24,406 nucleotides of DNA, from positions 1 to 24,406 of the IMG/VR virus record IMGVR_UViG_3300022602_002910; one strand, written 5' to 3'. A model generated the notes under the pieces. It was not told the DNA's origin. It worked only from the letters and a program-made list of their open reading frames with translations, and did not search any database. The position numbers were made by a program, and so were the translations under genes. The DNA comes from a virus. Shown piece by piece: positions 2,861-23,665 of the stretch (its first letter is position 1; every line of letters starts with the position of its first letter).

Positions 2861-4042
2861 TTATTTATTACGGCTTTTTAAGAGGTTTGCGCGAGAAAAA
2901 TCTTCTTGGTTAACCAGCTTAGTCATTCCGTGTTTATGATGACTTGCGACAAACCCTTCACCATGTGTTGGAGTTTCGCCTATCTTAGTTTCATATTTTT
3001 CTGTTGGAGCCAAAGACTTAACTAAAGCATTCTTGGCTTGTTGTAGATGATGATGAATTTTTAGTGCAGATTCAAAGTGTTTCTTATGTTGATCAACATG
3101 AGCTAAGTGTGCAGTTAAATCAGCAGAGACTTTAGCTTTACCCTTTTCGCTAGAAAGTTTATCTGCTTTTTTGCCAAACTTTGACGATAAGTGCTTCTTG
3201 TAACCTTCTACAGAAGGAACTTCCCCAGTCTTTACTGTATCATTTAAGTAAGTGTTAAGATGTTCAGAATGAGGAACAACAACAGAATGCATATTATGCG
3301 GCGCACTCTTATGGGCTTTTTCTGCTTCTGCCATATGATGCTGAAATTCTTTCTCATGTTCTTTTTCATGTTTTGCTTTTGACATGTCAATTTCAGGATC
3401 AATTAAATTTACATCTGGGTGTTTGCCAAAGTCGTGTAGATGTTCTGCAGGAGCAGCTCTCATTGTTTCTAATGTTGGACCATGATACTTGGTATGGACA
3501 ACTACACCGAGTTTAGATTTCTTTACTTTCTTAGCTTCATCGCCATGAGCAGTATAAGTGATTGTGTTTGGTGTAAACGATGCTGAATCTTTACCGTGTT
3601 TAACATCACCTTCACCATACATTAAGTCGCCTTGATAGACACCTTTCTTAGGAGCAACTTTCTTAAGATGCTTTAGTGCTTGCTTCATCTTTTCAGCAAG
3701 ACCTGGTTTATCTCCATGGTTTGCTTCAATATCTTTTTCTGAATAGTTTATTTTTGGTGTTTTATTGAATGCTGATTTTGTAGCAACAAAAAACTTACCA
3801 GTGCTTGGGTGGTGACCGAATACAAGAGAAGGAGATCCATCATATTTGGTTGTAATGCGAGTATCATTGTGACCACCAGTTGTAACGTGGCCATGTACAG
3901 CATTTAACATATGAACAGCTTTATGATAACCAGGCTCGCCTTCATCAATATGATGCATATTGACATGAGTCAAATGCTTTAGATGAGATGGTGTTTTAGC
4001 TGCTTCTGCTTGTTCTTTTAGAAATGTTTTAAATCCGAACAT
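2861..4042 (-). CDS. KxDG-motif ligase-like phage protein with capsid-targeting-like N-terminus
   Basis: This 393-aa protein is strongly His/Lys-rich and has no cysteine I can see. Around residues 62-75 it has ITTKYDGSPSLVFG, which resembles motif I (KxDG) of covalent nucleotidyltransferases such as RNA and DNA ligases. VYQGDLMYGEG (about 135-145) is a possible motif III counterpart. I recall T4-like phages carrying an uncharacterised family with a similar K-W/Y-D-G-A/S-P block, so ligase activity is an inference. The first residues, MFGFKTFLKE-QAEAA, resemble the T4 capsid-targeting peptide MKTYQEFIAE-A that gp21 protease cleaves after Glu. The C-terminal half (about 215-350) is helical and highly charged. 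The ATG overlaps the previous stop (TAATG), with AAAGGTGA as ribosome-binding site, so the two genes are translationally coupled. Confidence 0.6.
   Translation of the reverse strand: MFGFKTFLKEQAEAAKTPSHLKHLTHVNMHHIDEGEPGYHKAVHMLNAVHGHVTTGGHNDTRITTKYDGSPSLVFGHHPSTGKFFVATKSAFNKTPKINYSEKDIEANHGDKPGLAEKMKQALKHLKKVAPKKGVYQGDLMYGEGDVKHGKDSASFTPNTITYTAHGDEAKKVKKSKLGVVVHTKYHGPTLETMRAAPAEHLHDFGKHPDVNLIDPEIDMSKAKHEKEHEKEFQHHMAEAEKAHKSAPHNMHSVVVPHSEHLNTYLNDTVKTGEVPSVEGYKKHLSSKFGKKADKLSSEKGKAKVSADLTAHLAHVDQHKKHFESALKIHHHLQQAKNALVKSLAPTEKYETKIGETPTHGEGFVASHHKHGMTKLVNQEDFSRANLLKSRNK
2862..2870 (-). promoter_or_regulatory. Candidate T4-type late promoter (TAATAAATA)
   Basis: The same 9-mer, TAATAAATA, occurs on the minus strand across the stop codon of the 393-aa gene, 43 nt before the ATG of the 686-aa fusion gene. 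The following 41-bp gap is longer than most gaps in this window, which leaves room for a start site. The match to the late consensus is imperfect and no further element is visible. Confidence 0.25.
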
Positions 4043-5010
4043 TATTCACCTTTATATTCTTGCGAATGTCCATGTTCATCAACATGATGCGCATGGAAAT
4101 CTATATGAGGAAATTCGTGTTTCAACTTCAAAAACTCATGGAGGTTTTTCTTGTCATCATCATATAAATGAGCTTCTCTATATTTACCACTATTTAAATG
4201 ATGACGAATAACTTGTGCTTTCTTTTGAGCTGTTGAATGATCAGTCTCAATATTACCTGCTCTTTCAACACGAATATGGTCAATATCAACACCATGTTTG
4301 CGCCAAGTATTTAGAAACTTTTCTTTATTATCAAAGTTAGAACGAGCAGTTGCCATAATCACTTTACTGTTTGGATGTTGTTTTACAGTTTTATGAATGG
4401 CTTTTAATTTTCTCATCATTGGATGAATTGGCTTTTCGTGTTCAAATTTATCTGAAGAACGAAACTCGCTAAAATCATAATGGTGATTAGGAGGAAGTTT
4501 ATGTGCATTAAATTCGCTATGAGTTAAAGAACCAACATGTTGCCCTTTATTATTCATAACATGAACTTTAGCAGTAGTATGCATTAAAGTTCCATCGATG
4601 TCAAATGCATGTAATGCGCCAGCGTGTGCAGCTGATTCAAAAATATTTGGATTAGTGCGACCATAGTTGCGCATAATAATGCCAGCTTCAGCGTTGGCTT
4701 CGTTTTCTATATCGCTTCCAGTCGCACCAGATTCAGCATGGATTCTATTTTCCACGTCTTGTTTGTAATGTGTTAATTCGTGCGCAATTGTACGCATGAC
4801 ATCAACTTTGTGACGTCCAGCGGTATTAACGTAGATGGCTTTATGTTCGGGATGATATCCCCCGAAGCTCTTATTCTTTTTAGCTTGCGCTTTATCGTCT
4901 ATCAGGTGGATTTTCGGAGGATTAGCAATACCTAAGTGGTGACAGGCGAACCCCACAAAGTGGTGCATATCATTCTTAGATTCATTTAGGAATTGTTTAA
5001 ACTTTTTCAT
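4042..5010 (-). CDS. HExxH metallopeptidase-like plus HAD-phosphatase fusion with capsid-targeting-like N-terminus
   Basis: This 322-aa protein appears to join two enzymes. Residues about 12-115 form a small zincin-like unit with HELTH at 77-81 and acidic candidates downstream in IENEANAEAG (101-110) for the third zinc ligand. Residues about 132-322 look like a HAD-superfamily phosphatase. Motif I is DIDGT (137-141), MATARS is a plausible motif II, and LYDDDKKN is a motif IV. The linker contains IFE-S (123-126), which fits the T4 gp21 cleavage pattern (I/L-x-E followed by a small residue). The N-terminus MKKFKQFLNE-S closely resembles the T4 capsid-targeting signal MKTYQEFIAE-A. The C-terminal tail is His-rich. 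A TAATAAATA motif at 5040-5048 upstream may be a late promoter. Substrates are unknown; the motifs are clear, and the packaging idea is inference. Confidence 0.65.
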   Translation of the reverse strand: MKKFKQFLNESKNDMHHFVGFACHHLGIANPPKIHLIDDKAQAKKNKSFGGYHPEHKAIYVNTAGRHKVDVMRTIAHELTHYKQDVENRIHAESGATGSDIENEANAEAGIIMRNYGRTNPNIFESAAHAGALHAFDIDGTLMHTTAKVHVMNNKGQHVGSLTHSEFNAHKLPPNHHYDFSEFRSSDKFEHEKPIHPMMRKLKAIHKTVKQHPNSKVIMATARSNFDNKEKFLNTWRKHGVDIDHIRVERAGNIETDHSTAQKKAQVIRHHLNSGKYREAHLYDDDKKNLHEFLKLKHEFPHIDFHAHHVDEHGHSQEYKGE

Positions 5011-5039: not shown

Positions 5040-5048
5040 TATTTATTA
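5040..5048 (-). promoter_or_regulatory. Candidate T4-type late promoter (TAATAAATA)
   Basis: On the minus strand this 9-mer reads TAATAAATA, one base from the T4 late consensus TATAAATA in its last eight positions. It ends 30 nt before the ATG at 5010 and overlaps the stop codon of the SDR gene. The next gene begins the cluster of proteins with capsid-targeting-like N-termini, which would be expected to be late. Such AT-rich strings also occur by chance here, so this is weak evidence. Confidence 0.3.
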
Positions 5049-5864
5049 TTTAATTAAATCGTTCACGATGCCTTCCACGGTATAATTCTGTACATATCCC
5101 AGAGCTTTTAACTTGGTATTATCGAGGTACATGGACTTAACTTGGACGATTTTATGGAAGTCTTTCTGAGGGATCGATACGATCTCACTCTTTGATCCAA
5201 GCTTCTCATATGCCATAGTGATAACGTCTCTGAACAGAGTTGCCTCGCCGTTTGCAATATTGTAAATTTCGTTCAATTCGCCTCTGTTTATAACCAAATT
5301 TATGGCTTCAATACAGTCTTTTACATGGATATAATCGCGGTAGAACTCGCCATTCTCATAAAGTTCGATTGGCTCATTCTCTTTCAGGCGGTTTATGAGA
5401 TACTGTAGAGCATTCTTTTTAGCCGAAACTCTACCGTCTCCGCGACCAACCACGTTACCTAATCTCAGAATACGATAATTCATACCAAAGGTTTGACAAT
5501 ACGAAATAAGCAACTGTTCGGCTGCTCTTTTTGTAATAGAATAGAATCCTTTTGGATCGCAATATGAGGTCTCTTTGGCTGGTAAGTCTGTGTCTCCATA
5601 GACAAACCAGCTGGAGATAAAGTTGAACGTCTGGACGTTAGCCTTGCGACAAGCGTCCAGAGTATCTAGAAGGTGGCTAAGATTTGTATCTACATCAACG
5701 TGAATGTCAGTAAACACATTATAATTATCAGTGGTGCTGATAAAATACAATACGTCTTGACTTTTTGGTGTATGCTCAATTCTAGGAATTACTTCGCCGC
5801 CAAATCTTTTGACGTAGCGGCTGCCGATAAAACCTGTGCCACCGTATACACTTAGCCCATCCAT
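5046..5864 (-). CDS. NAD(P)-dependent SDR sugar reductase/epimerase (abequose-synthase-like position)
   Basis: This 272-aa protein belongs to the extended short-chain dehydrogenase family that acts on nucleotide sugars. Near the start is the dinucleotide-binding loop GGTGFIGS (about 8-15). The catalytic Ser lies in ISSWFVYGD and the Tyr/Lys pair in YSITK (about 148-152). GEFYRDYIHVKDC and MYLDNTKLKALGY are typical C-terminal substrate-binding segments. It is the last gene of the sugar cassette and overlaps the 3-dehydrase gene by 13 bp. After a C3-deoxygenating enzyme, the known pathways (RfbJ/Abe, RfbS) end with a 4-ketoreductase of this type, so I infer it reduces a 4-keto-3,6-dideoxyhexose. 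An epimerase is the main alternative. At 272 aa it is slightly shorter than typical (about 300). Confidence 0.75.
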   Translation of the reverse strand: MDGLSVYGGTGFIGSRYVKRFGGEVIPRIEHTPKSQDVLYFISTTDNYNVFTDIHVDVDTNLSHLLDTLDACRKANVQTFNFISSWFVYGDTDLPAKETSYCDPKGFYSITKRAAEQLLISYCQTFGMNYRILRLGNVVGRGDGRVSAKKNALQYLINRLKENEPIELYENGEFYRDYIHVKDCIEAINLVINRGELNEIYNIANGEATLFRDVITMAYEKLGSKSEIVSIPQKDFHKIVQVKSMYLDNTKLKALGYVQNYTVEGIVNDLIK

Positions 5865-7153
5865 TTATGTAACACCGATTCGTAATATTTGAATACTTCT
5901 TCCCCGTATCCAGGATAACAGCCAACAAAGAATACATTGCTCAACGCTTTGTTAGCGTTAGGATAATCGTCAGCATTTCCTAAGTGTTTGTATCCTGGAT
6001 GTAATAGAATGTTGCCAGCAAAGTAGTTACGAGTTTGAATGCGATTCTTCTCGAGGAATGCTTGTAACTGTTCTTTCATTTCTGCAGTATCAGTGATCAA
6101 TGGAACACCGAACCATGATGGATCAGCTTCAAGCAATCGAGTGGCAATTTTTACACCTGGAACATATTTCTCGAACATTGCTTTGATGCGTTCGAAATTA
6201 GCACGGCGCTTAACGTCAATCTCATCGATCTTTTCTAACTGTTCCATTCCGATTGCGCCTTGCATATCTAATGGCTTTAGATTGTAACCCATGTTGCTGA
6301 AGAGATACTTGTGATCAATTATCCCATTATAGCCTTCAAGCCACTTATCAAAGCGGTTGCCGCAAGTGCCGCAAGCCAACAAGTTAGCAGAACCAATACA
6401 ACGACAGTCGCGACCCCACCAAGATATTGATCTTGCTGTGTTGATGAGAGCTTCGTCATTAGAGCAGACCATGCCCCCTTCACCTGTTGAGATGTGGTGC
6501 GCTGGATAGAAAGAAGTTGTCCAAGCATAGTAGTATTCCGTTAGTAGTTTGTTGTCCCATTTAGTACCAAGAGAATCACAATTATCACCTAACAATATCA
6601 AACCATGATCTTCACACAATTTCTTTAGGAAATCCATATGTGGTGGATTGCCAAGAACAGGAGAAACAAAGATTGCTTTTGTACGAGAAGTAATCTTCTC
6701 TGCAATCTTAAAGATATCGAAGTTCAAAGTATCCATTTCAATATCAATGAATACTGGTTTTAAATTATTTTGTACGAGCGGAGCAATTGTAGTTGGGAAT
6801 CCCACTGGTGAAACGATAACTTCATCACCATCTTGCCAACCCAAATGTTTTTTCACTGCACTTACTAATGTCAAGTTAGCTGATGAACCTGAGTTCACCA
6901 TATGCGAATACTTAACATTAAACTTTCTACCAAACTTGACTTGAAACTTGGCAACGTTCTCGCCAGAAACAAGCCACTTGCCTGTCAAAAATGCTTTGAC
7001 GCCAGCCTTAACTTCTTTATCGTCCCAGTATGGACCACTGTAGAATACAGTATCCTTATCTGGATTAAATTGTTTACAGTTATATGCATATTTAGGTGTA
7101 CCAACCTCAGCAACCAACTGATCAATCAAATCACTTACTTTATCTTTATCCAT
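5852..7153 (-). CDS. E1/RfbH-type nucleotide-4-keto-6-deoxyhexose 3-dehydrase (PMP and [2Fe-2S])
   Basis: This 433-aa protein has the DegT/DnrJ fold, but its residues point to the E1/RfbH dehydrase rather than an aminotransferase. The PLP-anchoring lysine is replaced by His220 in SFYPAHHISTGEGG (214-227), as in Yersinia E1. The E1 iron-sulfur pattern is present: Cys192 (DNCD), 57 residues, Cys250, one residue, Cys252 (DCRC), then Cys264 before GNRF. The last spacing is 11 rather than 7, because a four-residue insertion adds an extra Cys261. E1 removes the C3 hydroxyl of a 4-keto-6-deoxyhexose using PMP and electrons from a reductase; no partner E3 reductase gene is visible, so a host ferredoxin system may supply them. 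The length matches RfbH (about 437). The gene overlaps rmlA by 8 bp and the SDR gene by 13 bp. Confidence 0.88.
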   Translation of the reverse strand: MDKDKVSDLIDQLVAEVGTPKYAYNCKQFNPDKDTVFYSGPYWDDKEVKAGVKAFLTGKWLVSGENVAKFQVKFGRKFNVKYSHMVNSGSSANLTLVSAVKKHLGWQDGDEVIVSPVGFPTTIAPLVQNNLKPVFIDIEMDTLNFDIFKIAEKITSRTKAIFVSPVLGNPPHMDFLKKLCEDHGLILLGDNCDSLGTKWDNKLLTEYYYAWTTSFYPAHHISTGEGGMVCSNDEALINTARSISWWGRDCRCIGSANLLACGTCGNRFDKWLEGYNGIIDHKYLFSNMGYNLKPLDMQGAIGMEQLEKIDEIDVKRRANFERIKAMFEKYVPGVKIATRLLEADPSWFGVPLITDTAEMKEQLQAFLEKNRIQTRNYFAGNILLHPGYKHLGNADDYPNANKALSNVFFVGCYPGYGEEVFKYYESVLHKWMG

Positions 7154-8072
7154 GTTCCACCATTTCCTTTAAGTATTTACCATAATCATTTTTACACATA
7201 TTAGCAAATCGTAATAAATTTTCTTTTTCCATCCAACCGTTGTTGTATGCAACTTCATGCGGCGAGCCAACTAAAATGTTCTGTTGGTCTTGAATGGTTT
7301 GTACAAAGTGAGATGCTTCAAGCATTGAGCTTGGTGTTCCTGTATCAAACCATGCTGTTCCACGCTGTAACTTTTTAACAAGAAGATTACCTTGTTCCAT
7401 ATAAACCTTATTCACGTCAGTAATTTCATATTCATTACGAGGCGGTGGAGATTTTTTAATTTTACCCTCAACTGGATCTGTAATATCATACACACTTGGT
7501 GGATAAAAATATAATCCAGTTGCAGCATAATTGCTTTTTGGCTTTTCTGGTTTTTCTTCAATGCTTGTTGCAATATGAAAGCGATTGTCGAATTCTTTAA
7601 ACTCAACAACGCCAAAACGTTGAGGGTCTTTAACTTTAGTTGCAAATACAACAGCTTTATCTTTTACGCTTTGGCTATTTGATTGCCATAACTGTTCGCT
7701 TAAGCCTGCACCATAAAAGAAATTATCGCCAAGAATCAAACAAGTTCTGTCAAACTTTTGTTTAATGTCTTTACCATATTGATATTTGGCAATAATAAAT
7801 GCTTCTGGTATTCCCCAGTTTTCGGCTTGTATTGTAAATCTAAGATCTACACCAAAATCATGCATATGGAACAATCTGTCTTTGAAGGTGGTATATTCGT
7901 ATGGTGTAGTGATTATGAGAATGTCTTTGATGCCAGCAAGCATCATAGTTGACAATGGATAATAGATCAACGGTTTATCGTAGATCGGAAGTAATTGTTT
8001 TGTTACGCTAAGTGTTGACGGATACAGTCTGGTAGATTTACCTGCTGCTAGAATTATTCCCAATGTTTTCAT
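7146..8072 (-). CDS. rmlA: Glucose-1-phosphate thymidylyltransferase
   Basis: This 308-aa enzyme is expected to couple glucose-1-phosphate with dTTP to give dTDP-glucose. The N-terminal nucleotide-binding signature LAAGKSTRLYP is at about 8-18, with Ser where Gly is more usual. It is followed by LSVTKQLLPIYDKPLIYYPLS, typical of RmlA. Further family blocks are QAENWGIPEAFIIA, LGDNFFYG, DPQRFGVVEF, EEKPEKPKSNYAATGLYFY and RGTAWFDTGT. The length is near the usual 290-300. The ATG overlaps the rmlB stop by 4 bp, so the two are translationally coupled. The RmlA-type signature rather than an RfbF-type one suggests the cassette uses dTDP sugars, which is notable because the E1-type enzyme downstream classically uses CDP sugars. 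Family assignment is firm; nucleotide preference is inferred. Confidence 0.92.
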   Translation of the reverse strand: MKTLGIILAAGKSTRLYPSTLSVTKQLLPIYDKPLIYYPLSTMMLAGIKDILIITTPYEYTTFKDRLFHMHDFGVDLRFTIQAENWGIPEAFIIAKYQYGKDIKQKFDRTCLILGDNFFYGAGLSEQLWQSNSQSVKDKAVVFATKVKDPQRFGVVEFKEFDNRFHIATSIEEKPEKPKSNYAATGLYFYPPSVYDITDPVEGKIKKSPPPRNEYEITDVNKVYMEQGNLLVKKLQRGTAWFDTGTPSSMLEASHFVQTIQDQQNILVGSPHEVAYNNGWMEKENLLRFANMCKNDYGKYLKEMVEHG

Positions 8073-9025
8073 AAATTTCTCAATCTGTAAAAATCAATAG
8101 TTTTCATTAGACCTGCATCGAAGTCAGTTTCTGGCGACCAGTTAAGCTCATTCACGATCTTACTATTATCTATACTGTATCTAAAATCGTGACCTGGACG
8201 ATCAGTAACATACTCAATTAATGACTCGGGTTTGCCCATTAATTTGAGTATCTTCTTTGCGAGGTCTATATTTGAAATCTCGTTATTACCACCAATGTTG
8301 TACTTCTCACCGATTTTACCTTTGCTTAAAACTTTACAAATAGCTTTACAGTGATCGTCAACATATAACCAATCTCGAACATTCATTCCGTTTCCATAAA
8401 CTGGAATCTTTTCGTTCTTCAACGCTTTACTTATAACGGTTGGAATAAACTTTTCTGGATGTTGATATGGTCCATAATTGTTAGAACAGTTTGTAATAAT
8501 TACAGGAAGTTTATATGTGTTACGGTATGCCATTACAAAGTGATCAGAAGCCGCTTTGGAGGCTGAGTAAGGTGATCGAGGGTCATACCTAGTCTCCTCG
8601 GTGAAAGACCCCTCTGGACCCTCTAGAGAGCCGTAAACCTCATCCGTAGAGACGTGTATGAACTTGAATTTTTTATCGAGAATATCAATGTTATCTTTTA
8701 CAATATCTAATAGATTTACAGTACCTAATACGTTAGTTGTAACGAAAGGCATAGAACTTTTTATAGAATTATCAACATGGGATTCTGCTGCGAAATTTAT
8801 AACTGCTCTGATATTATTGTTCACCATAAACTTAGTGAGCAATTGTCTATCGCAAATGTCACCCACTATGAGCATAGTTTGTTTATTGATGTGGATGTTA
8901 TCAGGATAACAAGCAGCATATGTCATCTTGTCGACATTATATACTTTTTCTTTATACTTTTTAGTAAAGTATCTTATAAAATTGCTGCCGATAAATCCGC
9001 AGCCACCAGTCACTAATATTGCCAT
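8069..9025 (-). CDS. rmlB: dTDP-glucose 4,6-dehydratase
   Basis: This 318-aa protein is an extended SDR enzyme that converts dTDP-glucose to dTDP-4-keto-6-deoxyglucose. It has the NAD-binding loop TGGCGFIGS (6-14) and the dehydratase triad VSTDEVYG (Thr127-Asp128-Glu129). The catalytic Tyr153 and Lys157 are in YSASK, followed by TNCSNNYGPYQHPEKFIP and NVRDWLYVDDH, all classic RmlB blocks. It is the first gene of a four-gene sugar cassette and overlaps rmlA by 4 bp. It lies 3 bp after a 94-aa hypothetical gene, so it is probably transcribed from the replication cluster. At 318 aa it is a little shorter than typical bacterial RmlB (about 340-360). Confidence 0.93.
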   Translation of the reverse strand: MAILVTGGCGFIGSNFIRYFTKKYKEKVYNVDKMTYAACYPDNIHINKQTMLIVGDICDRQLLTKFMVNNNIRAVINFAAESHVDNSIKSSMPFVTTNVLGTVNLLDIVKDNIDILDKKFKFIHVSTDEVYGSLEGPEGSFTEETRYDPRSPYSASKAASDHFVMAYRNTYKLPVIITNCSNNYGPYQHPEKFIPTVISKALKNEKIPVYGNGMNVRDWLYVDDHCKAICKVLSKGKIGEKYNIGGNNEISNIDLAKKILKLMGKPESLIEYVTDRPGHDFRYSIDNSKIVNELNWSPETDFDAGLMKTIDFYRLRNL

Positions 9026-9028
9026 AAA

Positions 9029-9313
9029 TTACTTCTTTTTGTTTTTTGCGTTAAGTGCCTTTTTAGCAGCCATTAATACATCTGATGCATATTCAGCTAA
9101 CAATGCATAATCAGTAGATGGCGCACTAATCATTCTTCCCATTTCCCTAACTCTTTTTCTGATAACATTATCAGGTTTATAGAAATAGTTATTTACAATG
9201 TTTGAAGGTGTAATCAAACTCAAAAGATTTGTAACATTGAGTGCAGAATTCTTTCTTGAAAAAGATTTCTTCACTGCAGTTCGTTTTACATTATCGTTTG
9301 AACTTGTCTTCAT
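9029..9313 (-). CDS. Hypothetical basic protein, 94 aa
   Basis: I do not recognise this family. The protein is Lys/Arg/Asn-rich, with basic ends (KRTAVKKSFSRKNS near the N-terminus, KKALNAKNKKK at the C-terminus) around a more hydrophobic middle (LSLITPSNIVNNYFYKPDN). Its ATG overlaps the stop of the helicase C-part as TAATG, and rmlB starts 3 bp after it. Its tight coupling to the helicase supports it being a real gene. It could be a small nucleic-acid-binding accessory, but only its charge suggests that. Confidence 0.6.
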   Translation of the reverse strand: MKTSSNDNVKRTAVKKSFSRKNSALNVTNLLSLITPSNIVNNYFYKPDNVIRKRVREMGRMISAPSTDYALLAEYASDVLMAAKKALNAKNKKK

Positions 9314-10479
9314 TAAACTTTCAATCCACTGAATTTAGATTTACTATCGCGTCTTGGTTCTGGAGAATCAAACTCTTGACCTGAATCGGCAATCTTTTGT
9401 TGTGCGCCTTGTTCAATATCATAAAGTCTCATCTTTGAACGGTCAACGCCAATAGCGAACCTTTTATTTAGCGTCGGGTCATTATAACGATTCTTTAACT
9501 GCTTGACCATAATCTGACCAAGACTTTCCAGTTCTTCGCTTGTAACCAACGCAAACATCATATCCGCAGTTGCTGGCAAACCAAATGACTCTGAAGTATC
9601 CTCAAGACCTGGATCTGTATTAGTGTAACCAGATCGAGTCGTTTGAGTTGCTGAAACAACAGGAACGCCAAACTCAACAGCAAGACCACGCAGTTCTTCA
9701 GCGATAGCTTTAATGTATGAATATGAGTTAACATTAGCACCATGTTTCAAACGAGCTGAAGCACAGATGTTCAAATAGTCAATAAAGATAATGTCTGGTT
9801 TGAAGTTCTTTTTCAAAGACAAGTCATTAATCAAATTACGAAAGTGAATCGTTGAAGCCGAGGCAGTTGGATATTCCTCAATGATTAGTTTACCTTTAAT
9901 GCTTTCCTTCAAACGAGAAATCTTACGATCATACATGTCTTTAGGAAGATTAGAAAGATCGTCAAGTTTTACATTAAGTAGATTGGCGTCAATACGTTCC
10001 GCAATCTTTTCCTTAGCCATTTCCATAGTTATGTAGAGAACGTTATAATTCTGAGACAAACTAGAAGCGGCAACGTGACACATGAACAATGACTTACCGA
10101 CACCTGTATTGTGTGAAGAAACACCATTAGTGTAATATCTATGATTCTCGTGGTTCACATTAATATCAACAATCGGGATTTTTAAACCAGTCTTAGAAAC
10201 TCTACCAATAGAGAATCCAGAAACTGTATTGAATTCTTCTACACCAATCTCACAAAGATCTTTTGCATATTTCCAACCAGATGCGGTCTCAAATAGATGA
10301 TTTTCGTTAACGCGAACTTCAGTTCCATCATCCATCGTCAACTTGTATTCTTCCCATTCACCTTTATCGATAAAGAAATTCACACCAACCCATCCATCAG
10401 GCGAATCAACTTCGACTTCATATCCTTGATTCAGAAGAGTTTGAATTTCAGAAATTGAAGTTTCTTTAGTTTCCCACAT
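9313..10479 (-). CDS. 41: Replicative DNA helicase gp41, C-part: intein-C plus C-extein
   Basis: This ORF carries a 124-aa intein C-fragment followed by the rest of a gp41/DnaB-family helicase (264 aa). The intein ends NGVSSHN, and splicing would join Thr107-side codon ACA at 10105-10107 to the upstream N-part. The C-extein opens with TGVGKSLFM, which completes the Walker A loop when joined to LAG. YITMEMA, DIIFIDYLNIC, AIAEELRGLAVE and ESFGLPATADMM closely match T4 gp41 blocks. The joined protein would be about 461 aa (T4 gp41 is 475). I chose the ATG at 10479 because TGAGGAATTTT precedes it; an in-frame GTG at 10491 falls on that ribosome-binding site. Only 34 bp separate this start from the N-part stop. 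Trans-splicing is inferred from intact intein motifs. Confidence 0.9.
   Translation of the reverse strand: MWETKETSISEIQTLLNQGYEVEVDSPDGWVGVNFFIDKGEWEEYKLTMDDGTEVRVNENHLFETASGWKYAKDLCEIGVEEFNTVSGFSIGRVSKTGLKIPIVDINVNHENHRYYTNGVSSHNTGVGKSLFMCHVAASSLSQNYNVLYITMEMAKEKIAERIDANLLNVKLDDLSNLPKDMYDRKISRLKESIKGKLIIEEYPTASASTIHFRNLINDLSLKKNFKPDIIFIDYLNICASARLKHGANVNSYSYIKAIAEELRGLAVEFGVPVVSATQTTRSGYTNTDPGLEDTSESFGLPATADMMFALVTSEELESLGQIMVKQLKNRYNDPTLNKRFAIGVDRSKMRLYDIEQGAQQKIADSGQEFDSPEPRRDSKSKFSGLKV
10108..10479 (-). other. Split intein C-fragment (124 aa) of the helicase
   Basis: The fragment holds most of an intein fold: a block-B-like VNENHLF where the conserved His follows N-E-N, a block-F region VDINVNHENHRYYTNG, and the terminal block G SHN followed by Thr as the +1 residue. 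No LAGLIDADG or HNH homing-endonuclease block is visible. With the 16-aa N-fragment the intein totals 140 residues, a mini-intein size. Having block B in the C-fragment is the hallmark of the atypical split class (AceL-TerL, VidaL). Confidence 0.88.
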
Positions 10480-10513
10480 AAAATTCCTCACAAATCATAT
10501 AAATAAAAAGGAT

Positions 10514-11155
10514 TTACTGTTTCTTCCTGAATCTGATTCTAACTCTCGTTTCTGGATGGACGCATCCAGCCAGTGCGATGTTCAATGTTTTAATCGGCAA
10601 ACCACCTTTGGTGATTCGATTAAAATAATCTAGATCAAAAGGAATACGTTTTTCAGTCTTATGATAAAACTCATAACGAGAATCTGAATCTTCCAAGTAA
10701 TCGTGACCGATGTTTGGATCAAATGAAACTGATAAGGCATCGGATAGGATTTTAGGAATCGCACCCTTAGTCTTATCAGTTTTAGTTTTGCCATCTAGAA
10801 TCTGAATCGATTCTAGAATGGCATTATGGATTGCTTTCTCTTGACAGAACTTCTCAGTTTCAACCATCAACCAGTCATTTGGAGTAGATTCTAAATCTTT
10901 CTGAACCTCATCGATCAGTTCAGAACATTTCTTAAAATCTTCTTCATATAGATTTTCTCTATTGTTTAGAGAAATCTGGATTGCTTCATGAGTGGGAATC
11001 TGGTTGTACTGGAGGACGTACTTTTGTACCTCTTCGAACAGGACTCTTTCGCTTCTTTCCTGAAGATACTCGCTTTTTAGATACGGAAGAATTTTTCTTA
11101 CGAACGGTTCGTTGAGGAACAGGTTCTTCAATATAATCTTCTCTAATTTCTTCAT
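10514..11155 (-). CDS. 41: Replicative DNA helicase gp41, N-part: N-extein plus 16-aa intein-N
   Basis: This 213-aa ORF encodes the N-terminal 197 residues of gp41, a hexameric 5'-3' helicase of the T4 replisome, then 16 residues of intein. KIILKNLFLNEPFVRKILPYLKSEYL aligns well with the T4 gp41 N-terminus. GAIPKILSDALSVSFDPNIGHDY, IPFDLDYFNRITKGG and the final TLNIALAG lead straight into the Walker A loop, where the break occurs. The following residues, CVHPETRVRIRFRKKQ, begin with the catalytic Cys and run to the stop. The start has GGAGA seven bases upstream and lies inside the preceding gene, giving a 170-bp overlap in another frame. On its own this half lacks ATP-binding residues and cannot be an active helicase. 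Confidence 0.9.
   Translation of the reverse strand: MKKLEKIILKNLFLNEPFVRKILPYLKSEYLQERSERVLFEEVQKYVLQYNQIPTHEAIQISLNNRENLYEEDFKKCSELIDEVQKDLESTPNDWLMVETEKFCQEKAIHNAILESIQILDGKTKTDKTKGAIPKILSDALSVSFDPNIGHDYLEDSDSRYEFYHKTEKRIPFDLDYFNRITKGGLPIKTLNIALAGCVHPETRVRIRFRKKQ
10517..10564 (-). other. Atypically short split intein N-fragment (16 aa)
   Basis: The peptide CVHPETRVRIRFRKKQ follows extein residues LAG. It begins with Cys1, the splicing nucleophile, and has the block-A look C-V-x-x-x-T-x-V. It stops before block B, which lies in the other ORF. It is strongly basic, with six Arg/Lys among the last ten residues. Canonical split inteins have N-fragments of about 100 residues; 16 is the size I recall for VidaL. 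Confidence 0.85.
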
Positions 11156-11516
11156 TCAAATTCTCCAGAGCAAACTTTTCAGCTTGAGCTTTTACAGCTT
11201 CATCAATTATCAATAACAAAATGTCACTTACTATTTTAGTAAACTTTTTATCATTTAGCAAATTATTTTCACCAACATTTATAAAAAGTTCATATGAAGC
11301 GTCTGCGCCTTTATATCCTAAATCATCACCAATTGTAATTGGACCATAAGAATATACAACACCTTTATATGGTCCAGCGAGCAATTCTACTTTTAAAATA
11401 GAAAGAAGTTCATCGCTGGGAGGAGTAGAGATCTTGAAGTATTTGTCTCTTTTATATTTTCTCTCACGATTCCATCTTTGGTATTTGTCAATAATTGGTT
11501 GTAATAGCTTACTCAT
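10986..11516 (-). CDS. Putative gp40-position protein (head-vertex chaperone candidate), basic tail
   Basis: This 176-aa protein starts with MSKLLQPIIDKYQRW at the ATG at 11516; a longer in-frame extension is unlikely because it would run through uvsX coding. The start overlaps the uvsX C-part stop by 8 bp. In T4, gene 40, a head-vertex assembly chaperone, lies between uvsX and 41, so position suggests a gp40 relative. The block LAGPYKGVVYSYGPITIGDD followed by a long helix KIVSDILLLIIDEAVKAQ would fit a small chaperone, but I cannot confirm homology. The last 56 or so codons overlap the helicase start in another frame and encode a Lys/Arg/Ser/Pro-rich tail. The body is likely real; the function is tentative. 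Confidence 0.55.
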   Translation of the reverse strand: MSKLLQPIIDKYQRWNRERKYKRDKYFKISTPPSDELLSILKVELLAGPYKGVVYSYGPITIGDDLGYKGADASYELFINVGENNLLNDKKFTKIVSDILLLIIDEAVKAQAEKFALENLNEEIREDYIEEPVPQRTVRKKNSSVSKKRVSSGKKRKSPVRRGTKVRPPVQPDSHS

Positions 11517-12036
11517 CGTCACTCTCCGTTTCTTCATCTTTGAAAATAGAACCAGTGTTTTGCTGATAAGTCTTAGCAATCCATTCTTTGAATGTTTCAT
11601 CTGCTAGAATTGGTTCCCAGAACTCTTTACTGTCTGTATCAGCAATACGATATTTCTTATCTTCAACTTCACCAGTTTCGGTGTTCACTCGAGAATACCA
11701 ACCATTGCTTGGCTTTACAACGTGACCCGATTCAAGAGCCATTTCTAACAAACCAGACCATTTACTGATACCACCTTCAAAGGTTACAGTCACAGGAATC
11801 TTTGCTTTCTCTCTAACATAACGTGACTTCTCAACGTTGATAATAAAGTTATAACCTACAATCTCTGTACCTTCTTTCTCTTGCTGACGACCGAGAATAT
11901 AAATGTTATCAGCTGAGTAATATGAGCCTGTGTTATGGGTGACAACACCATTTTCTAAAACATAATGTTCTGCTTCCTTTACAGAAAGATCATAAACTTT
12001 TCTTTTGCCGACCGAAGTAATACTTTTAATTTTCAT
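11509..12036 (-). CDS. uvsX: UvsX recombinase, C-part: intein-C plus C-extein
   Basis: This 175-aa ORF has a 35-aa intein C-fragment and 140 residues of UvsX. The extein starts TGSYYSADNIYILGRQQEKEG and continues with NVEKSRYVREKAKIPVTV, FEGGISKWSGLLEMALE and VVKPSNGWYSRV, closely parallel to the second half of T4 UvsX. It ends in an acidic tail (DEETESDDE), as T4 UvsX does. The ATG has GAGGAA five bases upstream, so this half is translated independently. The joined product would be 350 aa (T4 UvsX is about 390). UvsX coats single-stranded DNA and drives strand invasion for recombination-dependent replication and repair. Confidence 0.92.
   Translation of the reverse strand: MKIKSITSVGKRKVYDLSVKEAEHYVLENGVVTHNTGSYYSADNIYILGRQQEKEGTEIVGYNFIINVEKSRYVREKAKIPVTVTFEGGISKWSGLLEMALESGHVVKPSNGWYSRVNTETGEVEDKKYRIADTDSKEFWEPILADETFKEWIAKTYQQNTGSIFKDEETESDDE
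11932..12036 (-). other. Split intein C-fragment of UvsX (35 aa)
   Basis: The fragment runs from MKIKSITSVG through the block-F segment VYDLSVKEAEHYVLENG to block G VVTHN, with Thr as the +1 extein residue (codon at 11929-11931). A 35-residue C-fragment is the usual size for canonically split inteins such as Npu DnaE and gp41-1. All catalytic residues expected in this part are present: the block-F His, the penultimate His and the terminal Asn. Confidence 0.9.
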
Positions 12037-12088
12037 AATTTCCTCTTTTTACATTTATCATTGTGCCACCGTTTTAGATTGCTGGATC

Positions 12089-13027
12089 TTAGTATTCTAC
12101 TGACAATACCTCCATATCAACTGTCATATTTTTAGCCTCAATCCAATCCGCGCCGCTACCATTATCTCTTACATATGGAATAAGGAATTTATGTTTATCT
12201 GAACATATAACTTTATGCCCATCATCAAACTCAATTTCATAACATTCAGGTTCACCATCATCTAGAGTTTCTGGATTCCAGATAGCAGTAACTTCCTGCG
12301 GACCATTTAGTGTTTTAACTAAATCGCCAACAACGAAATCTTCAACACTCTTACAAGTTCCATCAGCAAGTTGAATCTTTGTTCCAGCAATTACACAACC
12401 ACCACCAACAATTGCTTTCGGAAACATACCAATTTCCATATAGGTATGGTTCACAACAACCATCGGAATATCTTTCAAAGTCAAGTGTGGTGTAACCATA
12501 CGGAACAATGACTTGATTTGTTTAGCACGAGTCATATCCGCTGCTGATTTTTGCTCAAGAGCATCTTCAACTTCTTTCTTTGAAGCCAAGTTACCGATTG
12601 AGTCAATAACAATCATCACACGCTCGCCGCGATTAATTTCACGCAACTGAGCCATGATATCAAACTTCAATTGTTCAATATCTGTAATTGGAGTATGGAC
12701 AACTCGGTCAGTATCAATACCAAAACTGTTAAAGTAGTTTTGTGGAGTACCGAACTCTGAGTCATAAAACAAAATTACAGCATCTTCATACTTGTCTTGA
12801 TATGCTTTAGCCATCAACAAACTGAATGCAGTTTTAAAGTGCTTTGATGGACCAGCCCACATTGTAAGACCTGGAGTTAGACCACCGTCTAATTTTCCAG
12901 ACAATGCAATATTAACCACAGGAATCTTTGTTGGGATCATATCCTTATCAACAAAGAGCTTTGACTTTGAAAGAATAGCCGAATCTTTGATTGTGGTATT
13001 CTTTTTGATTTTATCTAATAAACTCAT
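12089..13027 (-). CDS. uvsX: UvsX recombinase, N-part: N-extein plus intein-N
   Basis: This 312-aa ORF encodes 210 residues of UvsX, the T4-type RecA homologue, followed by a 102-aa intein fragment. TKIPVVNIALSGKLDGGLTPG and the P-loop AGPSKHFKT (58-66) match T4 UvsX, which also lacks the usual Gly before the Lys. FYDSEFGTP, MIVIDSIGNLASKKEVEDA and DMTRAKQIKSLFRMVTP also match closely. The extein ends at AIVGGG, the strand-exchange region equivalent to VMGGGTG in T4, and the intein begins at Cys211. It lies 10 bp after the polymerase-side boundary (polymerase stop 13038) and is followed by only 52 bp before the C-part. This half lacks the C-terminal core strands, so activity should need splicing. 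Confidence 0.93.
   Translation of the reverse strand: MSLLDKIKKNTTIKDSAILSKSKLFVDKDMIPTKIPVVNIALSGKLDGGLTPGLTMWAGPSKHFKTAFSLLMAKAYQDKYEDAVILFYDSEFGTPQNYFNSFGIDTDRVVHTPITDIEQLKFDIMAQLREINRGERVMIVIDSIGNLASKKEVEDALEQKSAADMTRAKQIKSLFRMVTPHLTLKDIPMVVVNHTYMEIGMFPKAIVGGGCVIAGTKIQLADGTCKSVEDFVVGDLVKTLNGPQEVTAIWNPETLDDGEPECYEIEFDDGHKVICSDKHKFLIPYVRDNGSGADWIEAKNMTVDMEVLSVEY
12092..12397 (-). other. Split intein N-fragment of UvsX (102 aa)
   Basis: Blocks A and B are clear. The fragment starts CVIAGTKIQLADG (Cys1 and a block-A pattern), continues VEDFVVGDLVKTLNG, and has ECYEIEFDDGHKVICSDKHKF, where the last His is in the block-B position. It ends with MTVDMEVLSVEY and a stop, at the site where endonuclease-bearing inteins carry their endonuclease. 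No endonuclease remains. Together with the C-fragment the intein is 137 residues. Confidence 0.92.
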
Positions 13028-20952: not shown

Positions 20953-21714
20953 TTAGTCCCACAGTCCTCGATAATATTTACCAAACAATATTAAACCATT
21001 TTGAATACGCTTATGATGCTTTTCATGACCTTTTTTATCAAACACACTGGTATCATTTGGTCCCTTTACCATTTCGTAAGTGACCACTCCTTCGTGCTTA
21101 GTTCTAGATTTCATATCTTCCGGCACACCGATGTGATTTCCATCTTTATCCAATGCTTGCCAAAGCATTTCAGATTTGCCAGAATGAAATTGCGCATCAT
21201 TATCATCGTCATTAAGCTGTTCAAACGTCCAAATCATCTCGTCTAAGACCCAATCCCAACGTTCGTGCATCATGTCCCACGCTTCTTTCTCGCCTTCTTC
21301 ATAGAAGTCGAAAGATTTTTGAGATGGATCTTTATCTTGATCGTCTAGAGTGCGCAGATTTTCAGGAACATCTTCAAGGTCAACATAAGGTGAACCGTGT
21401 TTAGTTGCTTTTAGTTGCTTTAGCATTGGAAGAGTGAGCATTGCAAGAGTGTCATTCATATTCCATGTATCATATTTGTCAATACGGATTTTGATTTTGC
21501 GCTGGCGCTTCTTGTCTACCCACAGGCAAAATTTAGCCAACAAAGAATCATTGCCATTTTTATCTTCGGATAACCAAGTACCAAAATCATGTACCCAATC
21601 TGGATATCGTAAAAATCCATATTCGTCTGGTACTTTCTTTACCCAAAAGCAAAGCGCATAAGCGATTTGATATGGACCAATCCATTTTTTGTGCGGACCA
21701 ATATATACTTTCAT
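20953..21714 (-). CDS. Hypothetical phage protein, 253 aa
   Basis: The N-terminus MKVYIGPHKKWIGPYQIAYAL is familiar from uncharacterised T4-like phage proteins, but I cannot assign a function. The middle is very acidic and Trp-rich (EGEKEAWDMMHERWDWVLDEM), and the C-terminus is basic and helical (KGHEKHHKRIQNGLILFGKYYRGLWD). The start overlaps the upstream glycosyltransferase stop by 4 bp. After its stop comes the only sizable intergenic gap. Confidence 0.65.
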   Translation of the reverse strand: MKVYIGPHKKWIGPYQIAYALCFWVKKVPDEYGFLRYPDWVHDFGTWLSEDKNGNDSLLAKFCLWVDKKRQRKIKIRIDKYDTWNMNDTLAMLTLPMLKQLKATKHGSPYVDLEDVPENLRTLDDQDKDPSQKSFDFYEEGEKEAWDMMHERWDWVLDEMIWTFEQLNDDDNDAQFHSGKSEMLWQALDKDGNHIGVPEDMKSRTKHEGVVTYEMVKGPNDTSVFDKKGHEKHHKRIQNGLILFGKYYRGLWD

Positions 21715-22685
21715 TTTATAAACACCTCATCAAATTTCTTCATAACATTTTCAGGACTAAAAGGTTCAACTATTTGTTTAAAGTTTCTATTCAATATATG
21801 TCTAACATGAATCATTTTTGCATGTAAATTCTGTTCATTGTAAAGTAATCCATGTTTACCCAACAATATTACATGGTTTTTATCTATTCCACCTTCCCAT
21901 GCTAAAACAGGTTTATTGTGATATAAAAAATCACAAATTGCTAACCCGAAAGATTCACCATGACTTCTACCATGAATCATCGCATCGCAAGCATTAACAA
22001 AGTTAGAAGTTTCTTGTGCGCCGAAAAACGATGGCAAGTAAATAATACTTGGGTGGTCTAAAAACTTCTTCGTATTCACCATTAGAAATACAACGTCATC
22101 TCTGGTAGTTACAATATTCTCAATTGTTTTGTGTACGAATGGAAGATCAAAAGTTGTCATTCCACCATGACGACCAAATACAAACTTAGTTCTTGGTATT
22201 CCAAGTTTCTTTCTTACATCCAGATTTGGTGGCGGCAGACTAACAATATGCGGAACATATTGTAATAATCCATCAGAGCAATGATTGCTTAACCACTCTG
22301 AAACATAAGCGTAAACATCACCATGCGGCTCATATGCTTGAAACACTACATGGTTTGCTGTCTTTGTGCTTTTTATTTCTGGCTTTTCTTTTTTGCCAGC
22401 TTTCAAAAAGTAAAACAGATCATATTGTGCAGCGATGCTTTCCATTGGTCCAAAGTTATCATCTGGACCAGCATCATAACCAATAACATTAAATCTTTTT
22501 GAGAGTTTGTTTATGACATTTTGATCAGACAGAATATCTAACTTTCCTGGATCTCTTAATCCAGAATTAAAAATGATTGTGCTTTCATTACCGAGAATAG
22601 TTTGATTGTATTCTGCATAATCCACGATAGCATTTGTCGTGCCTCTAAGATTAAGTTGATGGCTGTAAAATAATACTTTTTTCAT
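21711..22685 (-). CDS. GT4-like glycosyltransferase, downstream tandem copy
   Basis: This 324-aa protein looks like a GT-B, GT4-type glycosyltransferase: KFVFGRHGGMTTFDLPFVH in the middle, then NACDAMIHGRSHGESFGLAICDF and NKPVLAWEGG, the donor-binding region. The family's E-x7-E pair would be Glu244 and residue 252, which here is Asp. It is a close paralog of the next gene upstream, conserved from the first residue (MKKxLFYxHQLNxRGTTN) to the last (DEVFIK), and overlaps it by 4 bp. A recent tandem duplication is the simplest explanation. Donor and acceptor are unknown. Confidence 0.7.
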   Translation of the reverse strand: MKKVLFYSHQLNLRGTTNAIVDYAEYNQTILGNESTIIFNSGLRDPGKLDILSDQNVINKLSKRFNVIGYDAGPDDNFGPMESIAAQYDLFYFLKAGKKEKPEIKSTKTANHVVFQAYEPHGDVYAYVSEWLSNHCSDGLLQYVPHIVSLPPPNLDVRKKLGIPRTKFVFGRHGGMTTFDLPFVHKTIENIVTTRDDVVFLMVNTKKFLDHPSIIYLPSFFGAQETSNFVNACDAMIHGRSHGESFGLAICDFLYHNKPVLAWEGGIDKNHVILLGKHGLLYNEQNLHAKMIHVRHILNRNFKQIVEPFSPENVMKKFDEVFIK

Positions 22686-23665
22686 TTGATGAACACTTCG
22701 TTAAATTTATCCATAACATTCTTAGGTGTAAATGGCTCGACAATATGTTTAAAATCTTTGCCTTCAACGTACTCTTTAAGATGTAACATATTACTCAAAA
22801 CAGTATCCTGCGTATACAATAATCCAGATGAATTCAGAAGCAACACATGGTTGCGATCAAATCCACCTTCCCACGCCATCACTGGCTTATTAAAAAATAA
22901 AAACTCGCAAATAGCTCCACCAAACGACTCACCTAGATTGCGTCCATGAATCATGGCATCACAAGCATTTACAAAATTAGATTTCTCTTGATTACCAAAA
23001 AATGGTTCTAAGTAAATTACATTTGGATGCTCAACAACTTTCATAGTATTTGCTAACAGAAATACTATGTCGTCTCTATTCTCAGCAATGTATTTTATGG
23101 CAGACCAAGTAAACCCTTTATCAAAGGTATATTGTCCACCGTGTCGACCATAAACAAACTTATCTTTTGGAATCCCTAACTCTTTTCTCAAATCTTTATT
23201 TGGTGGAGGCAGATCAACAACATATGGAACAAAAGGAACATCTATATTGTGTGTCTGCTTATTGTTTATTGACAGCCACTCAGAGATATAAGCATATCGA
23301 TCGCCATGTGGATCGCAGTATTGAAACACTGCATGATTGGCTGTTTTAGTTGATGTGATCTCAGGGTTTTCTCTTAACCCTGCTTTTTGAAAATAAAACA
23401 AATCATACTTAGAAGCAATATCATTTAACTTGTCAAAGTTCTTTTCTGGACCAGCTTCATAAGCAATAACATTAAATCTTTTTTTGATACTTTGAACAAC
23501 ATCATCATTAGAAAGAATATCTAATCCCTCATCATTGAAAGATGCGTTGTATACAATCGTGCTTTCATTACCAAGCACTGATTGATTGAATTCAGCATAA
23601 TCCACTAAAGAATTAGTGGTTCCGCGATAATTAAGTTGGTGCGCGTAGAAGAGAATCTTTTTCAT
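22682..23665 (-). CDS. GT4-like glycosyltransferase, upstream tandem copy
   Basis: This 327-aa protein is the sister of the downstream copy, similar over its full length and well over half identical by eye. It keeps the canonical E-x7-E pair (Glu246, Glu254) in GRNLGESFGGAICEF. Other shared blocks are RFNVIAYEAGPEKNF, STKTANHAVFQY, PHGDRYAYISEWLS and LGIPKDKFVYGRHGG. The start lies 35 bp inside the dCMP deaminase gene; because its paralog begins at the same residue the overlap is likely real. The two copies may have different acceptors or form a dimer. Confidence 0.72.
   Translation of the reverse strand: MKKILFYAHQLNYRGTTNSLVDYAEFNQSVLGNESTIVYNASFNDEGLDILSNDDVVQSIKKRFNVIAYEAGPEKNFDKLNDIASKYDLFYFQKAGLRENPEITSTKTANHAVFQYCDPHGDRYAYISEWLSINNKQTHNIDVPFVPYVVDLPPPNKDLRKELGIPKDKFVYGRHGGQYTFDKGFTWSAIKYIAENRDDIVFLLANTMKVVEHPNVIYLEPFFGNQEKSNFVNACDAMIHGRNLGESFGGAICEFLFFNKPVMAWEGGFDRNHVLLLNSSGLLYTQDTVLSNMLHLKEYVEGKDFKHIVEPFTPKNVMDKFNEVFIK

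Follow-up and report, generated by a model that had tools for sequence, protein, structure and literature searches.

Targeting of proteins to the capsid by a short N-terminal tag is already known from phage T4, where suppressor analysis of the internal protein IPIII assigned targeting mainly to residues 4 and 7 and processing to residues 8 and 10 (PMC9026906). Enzymes have also been reported in cyanophage virions. Published proteomes list an NMNAT/cytidylyltransferase, detected by mass spectrometry, in CsCl-purified virions of S-SM1 (PMC3037559), S-SZBM1 (PMC9146016), S-CREM2 (PMC10665884) and S-SCSM1 (PMC9602691). T4-like phages that infect cyanobacteria and other bacteria of aquatic habitats are very abundant; the recurrence of NMNAT-type enzymes in their virions has called for an explanation, contamination being the cautious one, and a sequence tag that predicts packaged enzymes would supply a mechanism. 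The passages of these four reports that we read do not mention a targeting tag, and the open-licence literature on cyanophages and marine phages yielded no discussion of capsid-targeting tags. Within the literature searched, the enzyme cargo and the phage group described here appear to be new.

Two tag-like N-termini in a T4-like phage fragment

The stretch of DNA analysed here (the window), 24.4 kb long, comes from a T4-like phage whose DNA polymerase is nearest to cyanophage gp43 (about 51%); the phage group is that of the Kyanoviridae-like aquatic T4-like phages. Two genes of this fragment, which overlap by one base, encode proteins of 322 and 393 residues (Table 1). The initial annotation had pointed to their N-termini, MKKFKQFLNE-S and MFGFKTFLKE-Q, likened both to the T4 capsid-targeting peptide and described both proteins as Lys/His-rich. 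These points hold. Both N-termini belong to real, ATG-started minus-strand ORFs, both tags are 10 residues long, as fits T4-type propeptides (about 10-19 residues), and carry F4, F7, L8 and E10, matching IPII/IPIII at positions 4, 7, 8 and 10, and both predicted cut sites (LNE/S and LKE/Q, respectively) fit the L/I-x-E rule. With K+H contents of 24.7% and 22.0% (pI 9.4 and 9.0), the two proteins rank first and second among the 29 window ORFs. Structure models place both tags outside the fold: the 322-aa tag is modelled at a pLDDT of about 33, and residues 1-22 of the 393-aa protein fall below 50.

A regular expression fixed beforehand from the window proteins and T4, M.{1,4}[FYW]..[FLI][FILVM].E, matched 2/29 window ORFs, the 322-aa and 393-aa proteins only. 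Across the whole of T4 it returned two proteins starting MKTYQEFIAE/A, which we take to be IPII and IPIII, and one spurious match; it had no match in T7, P-SSP7 or HTVC010P. The pattern was later widened to Tyr at position 7 because the strict form missed Tyr-7 tags such as MNFKQYLTE/A and MAFKEYLKE/A on a 165-kb contig (G001). The tag takes the form M-x-x-[FY]-x-x-[FYL]-[LIV]-x-E. Among 149 distinct tags, 121 are exactly 10 residues long, position 4 is F in 138 and Y in 11, position 7 is F in 94, Y in 41 and L in 14, and position 8 is L, I or V in 145; since this constraint at positions 4, 7, 8 and 10 is partly built in by the search pattern, the statistical weight rests on the shuffle tests given below. 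Positions 5, 6 and 9 are variable, and the residue after the Glu is mostly E, A, S, D or Q.

Table 1. Features of the tagged genes and of the genes downstream of them; coordinates are those of the window.
Feature	Position	Strand	Basis or remark
322-aa protein	4042-5010	minus	ATG start; tag, IrrE/PprI-like HExxH metallopeptidase domain and HAD phosphatase domain
Predicted capsid-targeting propeptide MKKFKQFLNE, 322-aa protein	4981-5010	minus	predicted cut Glu10/Ser11
IrrE/PprI-like metallopeptidase domain (residues 12-119)	4654-4977	minus	Foldseek, VIA-align
HExxH zinc motif HELTH (residues 77-81)	4768-4782	minus	direct reading
HAD phosphatase domain (residues 128-320)	4051-4629	minus	motif and VIA-align
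393-aa protein	2861-4042	minus	ATG start; tag and DUF6267 (PF19782), ATP-dependent-ligase-like fold
Predicted capsid-targeting propeptide MFGFKTFLKE, 393-aa protein	4013-4042	minus	predicted cut Glu10/Gln11
KxDG motif (K66-Y-D-G69), candidate covalent nucleotidyltransferase motif I	3836-3847	minus	alignment
686-aa NMNAT/cytidylyltransferase-like and P-loop (kinase-like) protein	759-2819	minus	downstream in cluster
Ferritin/Dps-like protein	222-758	minus	directly downstream of the cluster

The two tagged genes belong to one conserved cluster with the gene for the 686-aa protein, which matches a PHROG cytidyltransferase (E 1.2e-48) and, below threshold, Zeta_toxin. Its combination of NMNAT and P-loop domains resembles NadR in architecture only (PMC9503650), and a PDB sequence search with it gave nothing useful. 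The N-terminus of the window's NMNAT (MQKQLKTNKILEE) shows no clear tag, and tagged orthologues of this protein occur in sister contigs; packaging of the window protein via a partner is possible. Most sister lineages tag either the NMNAT and P-loop protein or DUF6267. The ferritin/Dps-like protein has an N-terminal extension of roughly 30 residues, also with no clear tag.

Several other features of the window were recorded. The uvsX gene appears to be split (11509-13027, minus): the last residues of an upstream ORF are N-intein-like (CVIAGTKIQLADG...), and a second ORF opens with a C-intein-like stretch ending VVTHN/T, followed by the rest of UvsX, which by its sequence looks like a split intein. 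A gp41-like helicase (9313-11155, minus) is also split, its upstream ORF carrying only about 16 N-intein-like residues (CVHPETRVRIRFRKKQ) and its C-part being longer and ending GVSSHN/T; it resembles an atypically split intein. Sugar-nucleotide genes lie at 5046-9025 on the minus strand (two epimerase/dehydratase-like, one aminotransferase-like and one nucleotidyltransferase-like), and two tandem, similar glycosyltransferase-like ORFs of 324 and 327 aa lie at 21711-23665.

Domains of the tagged proteins

The 322-aa protein had been read as a metallopeptidase/phosphatase fusion and the 393-aa protein as ligase-like; structure models support both readings at the fold level, together with the HExxH and DxDGT motifs for the former and a conserved KxDG for the latter. 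The model of the 322-aa protein is moderate (pLDDT 73). Foldseek returned IrrE (3dti, prob 0.92, E 7.8e-3) as its top match, and VIA-align superposed PprI over residues 12-115 (Z 7.9). A Pfam search gave no match for the metallopeptidase domain, and a PDB search with the profile of the 322-aa protein gave nothing useful; the PHROG matches are to a metallo-protease and a polynucleotide kinase. HEL.H is kept in all four full-length orthologues aligned. The IrrE assignment, drawn solely from the fold and short motifs, is thus a putative one. HAD structures lead the VIA-align list for this model, and the HAD domain aligns with the phosphatase domain of T4 Pnkp at Z 10.9, a value that other HAD phosphatases equal. 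Its DxDGT nucleophile motif lies at residues 137-141, and D137, D139 and T141 are invariant in the orthologue alignment.

Residues 22-389 of the 393-aa protein match DUF6267 with an E-value of 3.9e-91 (306.6 bits, against a curated cut-off of 27), a family with relatives in 467 phage records. When 14 DUF6267 sequences were aligned, K66 and D68 were invariant and G69 nearly so, one orthologue (contig L007) carrying KYDE at this place; G138, G363 and K375 were also invariant and D139 and E362 near-invariant, and were placed in motifs III-V by eye. A model built from these 14 sequences reached a mean pLDDT of 86. Among the VIA-align matches listed for it, 50/50 were ATP-dependent RNA/DNA ligases or tRNA-ligase domains, the best of them being Naegleria RNA ligase (Z 9.4, rmsd 3.6 over 185 residues). 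The matches from Foldseek were weak (E 0.06 at best), and a PDB sequence search with the DUF6267 profile found no relevant match. The fold and the short motifs, from which the assignment is solely drawn, point to a ligase-like protein, and DUF6267, a family of so far unknown function, would gain an identity open to testing.

The basic composition of these proteins admits another reading, namely that they are packaged and act in head assembly or in DNA condensation within the particle and not in the host, their enzymatic domains being secondary. They are the most Lys/His-rich proteins of the window, and T4 IPIII is thought to act in head morphogenesis (PMC9026906). However, the KxDG, HExxH and DxDGT motifs are conserved, and the cargo of relatives includes SAM lyase-family and kinase-like proteins, more sensible in a host than in a head; we consider a role confined to the particle unlikely.

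The tag is linked to virion detection in relatives

The NMNATs reported in virions of S-SM1, S-SZBM1, S-CREM2 and S-SCSM1 are tagged in 4/4 cases (MKKFSAFLNE/A, MRFRQFIIE/A, MKNFSSFLTE/A and MKSFLQFLKE/A, respectively). The S-CREM2 proteome names four non-structural virion enzymes: a SAM hydrolase that starts MKDFDSFLEE, a kinase-like protein that starts MKRFDAFLTE, the cytidylyltransferase and a Cas9-like nuclease. The last label is the authors' annotation (PMC10665884), and our Pfam search with this protein found no match; it carries the motif RFASFMAE/A at residues 17-25, offset from the N-terminus and recognised post hoc. The pre-set regular expression matched 3/4 of these enzymes versus 0/53 named non-virion, non-structural proteins (p 1.4e-4; p 2.5e-6 with the post hoc fourth enzyme counted), and none of the 26 structural proteins listed for the virion. 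Over all 219 S-CREM2 genes, 5/7 matches were virion proteins (p 0.009). Tag and virion detection are statistically linked in these relatives. Many virion proteins are untagged, which is no surprise in proteins of the tail and shell; conversely, the tagged S-SZBM1_191 and S-SCSM1_30, both of about 105 aa, are not reported in virions. In S-PM2, where NMNAT forms a fusion with an untagged DUF6267, the protein was not detected. A kinase is reported in S-CRM01 virions, as cited in PMC10665884, and the S-CRM01 homologues of the kinase (MISFDQFLSE) and of the NMNAT (MKLFNQFFKE/A) are tagged.

Four consecutive S-CREM2 genes, gp12-gp15 (L154:7704-13331), encode products that are all reported in virions. 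The N-termini of gp12, gp13 and gp14 are tag-like and that of gp15 is a looser variant (MNFSEFNES), making these genes a candidate packaged-effector operon.

The shared N-terminus could also be an interaction tag for a membrane, for a replication complex or for the proteins themselves, virion detection then reflecting contamination by abundant enzymes. In two of the proteome papers the authors caution that contaminating enzymes may be present in CsCl preparations, and a RegA-type translational repressor stands among the S-SCSM1 virion annotations. Contamination by abundance is nonetheless disfavoured because the tag separates detected (3-4/4) from undetected (0/53) enzymes in S-CREM2; moreover, NMNAT was found in four independent preparations, as reported, and the end of the tag is the gp21 cut-site consensus. 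We regard this explanation as improbable.

The tag is conserved in orthologues. Glu10 is kept in 14/14 aligned DUF6267 proteins, with identities down to 28%, and among 80 further contigs fetched by DUF6267, 58/65 distinct DUF6267 proteins were tagged, some exceptions being near-misses (e.g. MIAFHQFLLVES). The tag of the 322-aa protein is kept in contigs L006, L007 (MKSFLRFIKE) and L012 (MKKFKYFLNE). It is also common to non-homologous proteins: DUF6267, NMNAT-like proteins/cytidylyltransferases, HAD phosphatases and several families with no known function. The HAD phosphatase is tagged when alone (L023, MYFTEFLSE) and when fused, as in the window. In S-SZBM1 the tag is on NMNAT and absent from DUF6267, whereas in the window and in L172-L181 the reverse holds; such shifts between the two by lineage would be expected of an address tag and not of inherited enzyme homology. 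Of the cyanophage DUF6267 proteins examined, most lack the tag, including S-SZBM1_141 and those of P-HM2 and S-SM1. A rule that every DUF6267 is packaged was discarded, given these untagged proteins and the absence of S-SZBM1_141 from the S-SZBM1 proteome; S-SZBM1_139, which was detected, is not the DUF6267 protein, its coordinates being those of another gene.

A gp21-type protease homologue was present in 13/13 large or near-complete relative records where one was expected; the window stops short of the head genes. In most relatives the major capsid protein carries an L-x-E site at about residues 51-58, e.g. FLTE/S, which resembles the FLTE/A of T4 gp23. P-HM2 and HTVC008M had no match to the strict tag pattern. 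P-HM2 retains the L-x-E capsid site. The Pelagibacter phage HTVC008M (L074-L081) has no strict-pattern tags, and its major capsid protein lacks an L-x-E site within residues 1-110, which suggests a shift in the specificity of its protease.

Chance was assessed by shuffling residues 2-16 of every N-terminus 500 times. Nine related isolates gave 16 tag matches against 2.3 expected (maximum 7 in the 500 shuffles), and the environmental contigs with the window gave 17 against 0.62 (maximum 4). The widened pattern gave 43 matches in all non-T4 genomes, with 3.0 expected. A stricter DUF6267 protein set was tagged in 54/63 cases (0.42 expected), and other ORFs on the same DUF6267 contigs in 43/267 (0.64 expected). 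Tabulating the N-termini of the window and its relatives thus places the tag far above shuffled expectation. Although N-termini in these genomes frequently start MK and use many A/T-rich codons, so that AT-rich starts could yield K/F/L-rich N-termini resembling the tag, chance or coding bias is rejected as its origin, with hardly any probability left to it, by these composition-preserving shuffles with their far fewer matches, by the internal-Met background, by the zero matches in the three non-T4 phages and by the invariance of Glu10 across the 14 diverged DUF6267 proteins.

Proposed role and comparison with known systems

The reading of the two N-termini as T4-type capsid-targeting tags on packaged proteins is, in our view, very probable. 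It is supported by conservation in orthologues, by non-homologous carriers, by the key positions shared with T4, by the gp21-type protease of relatives and by the virion contents of relatives; packaging and cleavage of the two window proteins are strongly inferred. During head assembly, the tag, a short helix whose residues 4 and 7 are aromatic, would bind the prohead core and so draw in the enzyme. Cleavage after Glu10 (L-x-E before S or Q) by the gp21-type prohead protease would then remove the tag, and the mature Lys/His-rich enzymes would stay in the head with the DNA and could enter the host alongside it. The predicted cargo is (a) the IrrE-like metallopeptidase and HAD phosphatase fusion and (b) the DUF6267 protein with its ATP-dependent-ligase-like fold. 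Because the tag matches the T4 signal and tagged proteins of relatives occur in virions, these phages probably deliver ready-made enzymes along with their DNA, and injection of the tagged enzymes into the host is likely.

What the enzymes would do there can be proposed only tentatively. The combination of ligase, phosphatase and P-loop domains would fit a kit for repairing nucleic-acid ends, and the presence of NMNAT suggests restoration of NAD, so that immediate repair of nucleic-acid ends or of cofactor damage might serve as counter-defence at DNA entry; both activities would help a phage whose host defends itself by cutting tRNA or destroying NAD. As a broader and equally speculative picture, aquatic T4-like phages might preload their heads, via an interchangeable ten-residue tag, with a variable kit (ligase, phosphatase/peptidase, NMNAT, SAM lyase, kinase, nuclease) that acts in the host before phage gene expression, e.g. 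mending cut tRNAs or restoring NAD. If so, the repertoire of injected enzymes could be read from the genome sequence via the tag alone, and the injected proteins of uncultured phages could be listed from metagenomes and then tested.

The closest described system, the T4 IPII/IPIII capsid-targeting sequence (MKTYQEFIAE/A), is alike in length, N-terminal place, residues 4, 7, 8 and 10, Glu-X cut site and basic cargo; however, the cargo there consists of small internal proteins and here of multi-domain enzymes, whose targeting and cleavage are predicted. T4 Alt, a packaged ADP-ribosyltransferase, offers the parallel of an enzyme placed in a T4-like head for delivery to the host, as predicted here, although the enzyme classes differ and no ADP-ribosyltransferase was found in the window. 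DUF6267 resembles the ATP-dependent RNA ligases (Naegleria RNA ligase, T4 Rnl1/Rnl2, Trl1) in its predicted fold and KxDG, yet differs from them in sequence (identity about 10%), in a Foldseek E >0.05 and in a long helical region. The HAD domain of the 322-aa protein shares its alignment (Z 10.9) and DxDGT motif with T4 polynucleotide kinase/phosphatase, where it is fused to a kinase and not, as here, to an IrrE-like metallopeptidase. Finally, whereas the window carries the tag on two genes upstream and not clearly on NMNAT itself, it shares both the gene cluster and the N-terminal tag with the virion NMNATs of S-SM1, S-SZBM1, S-CREM2 and S-SCSM1.
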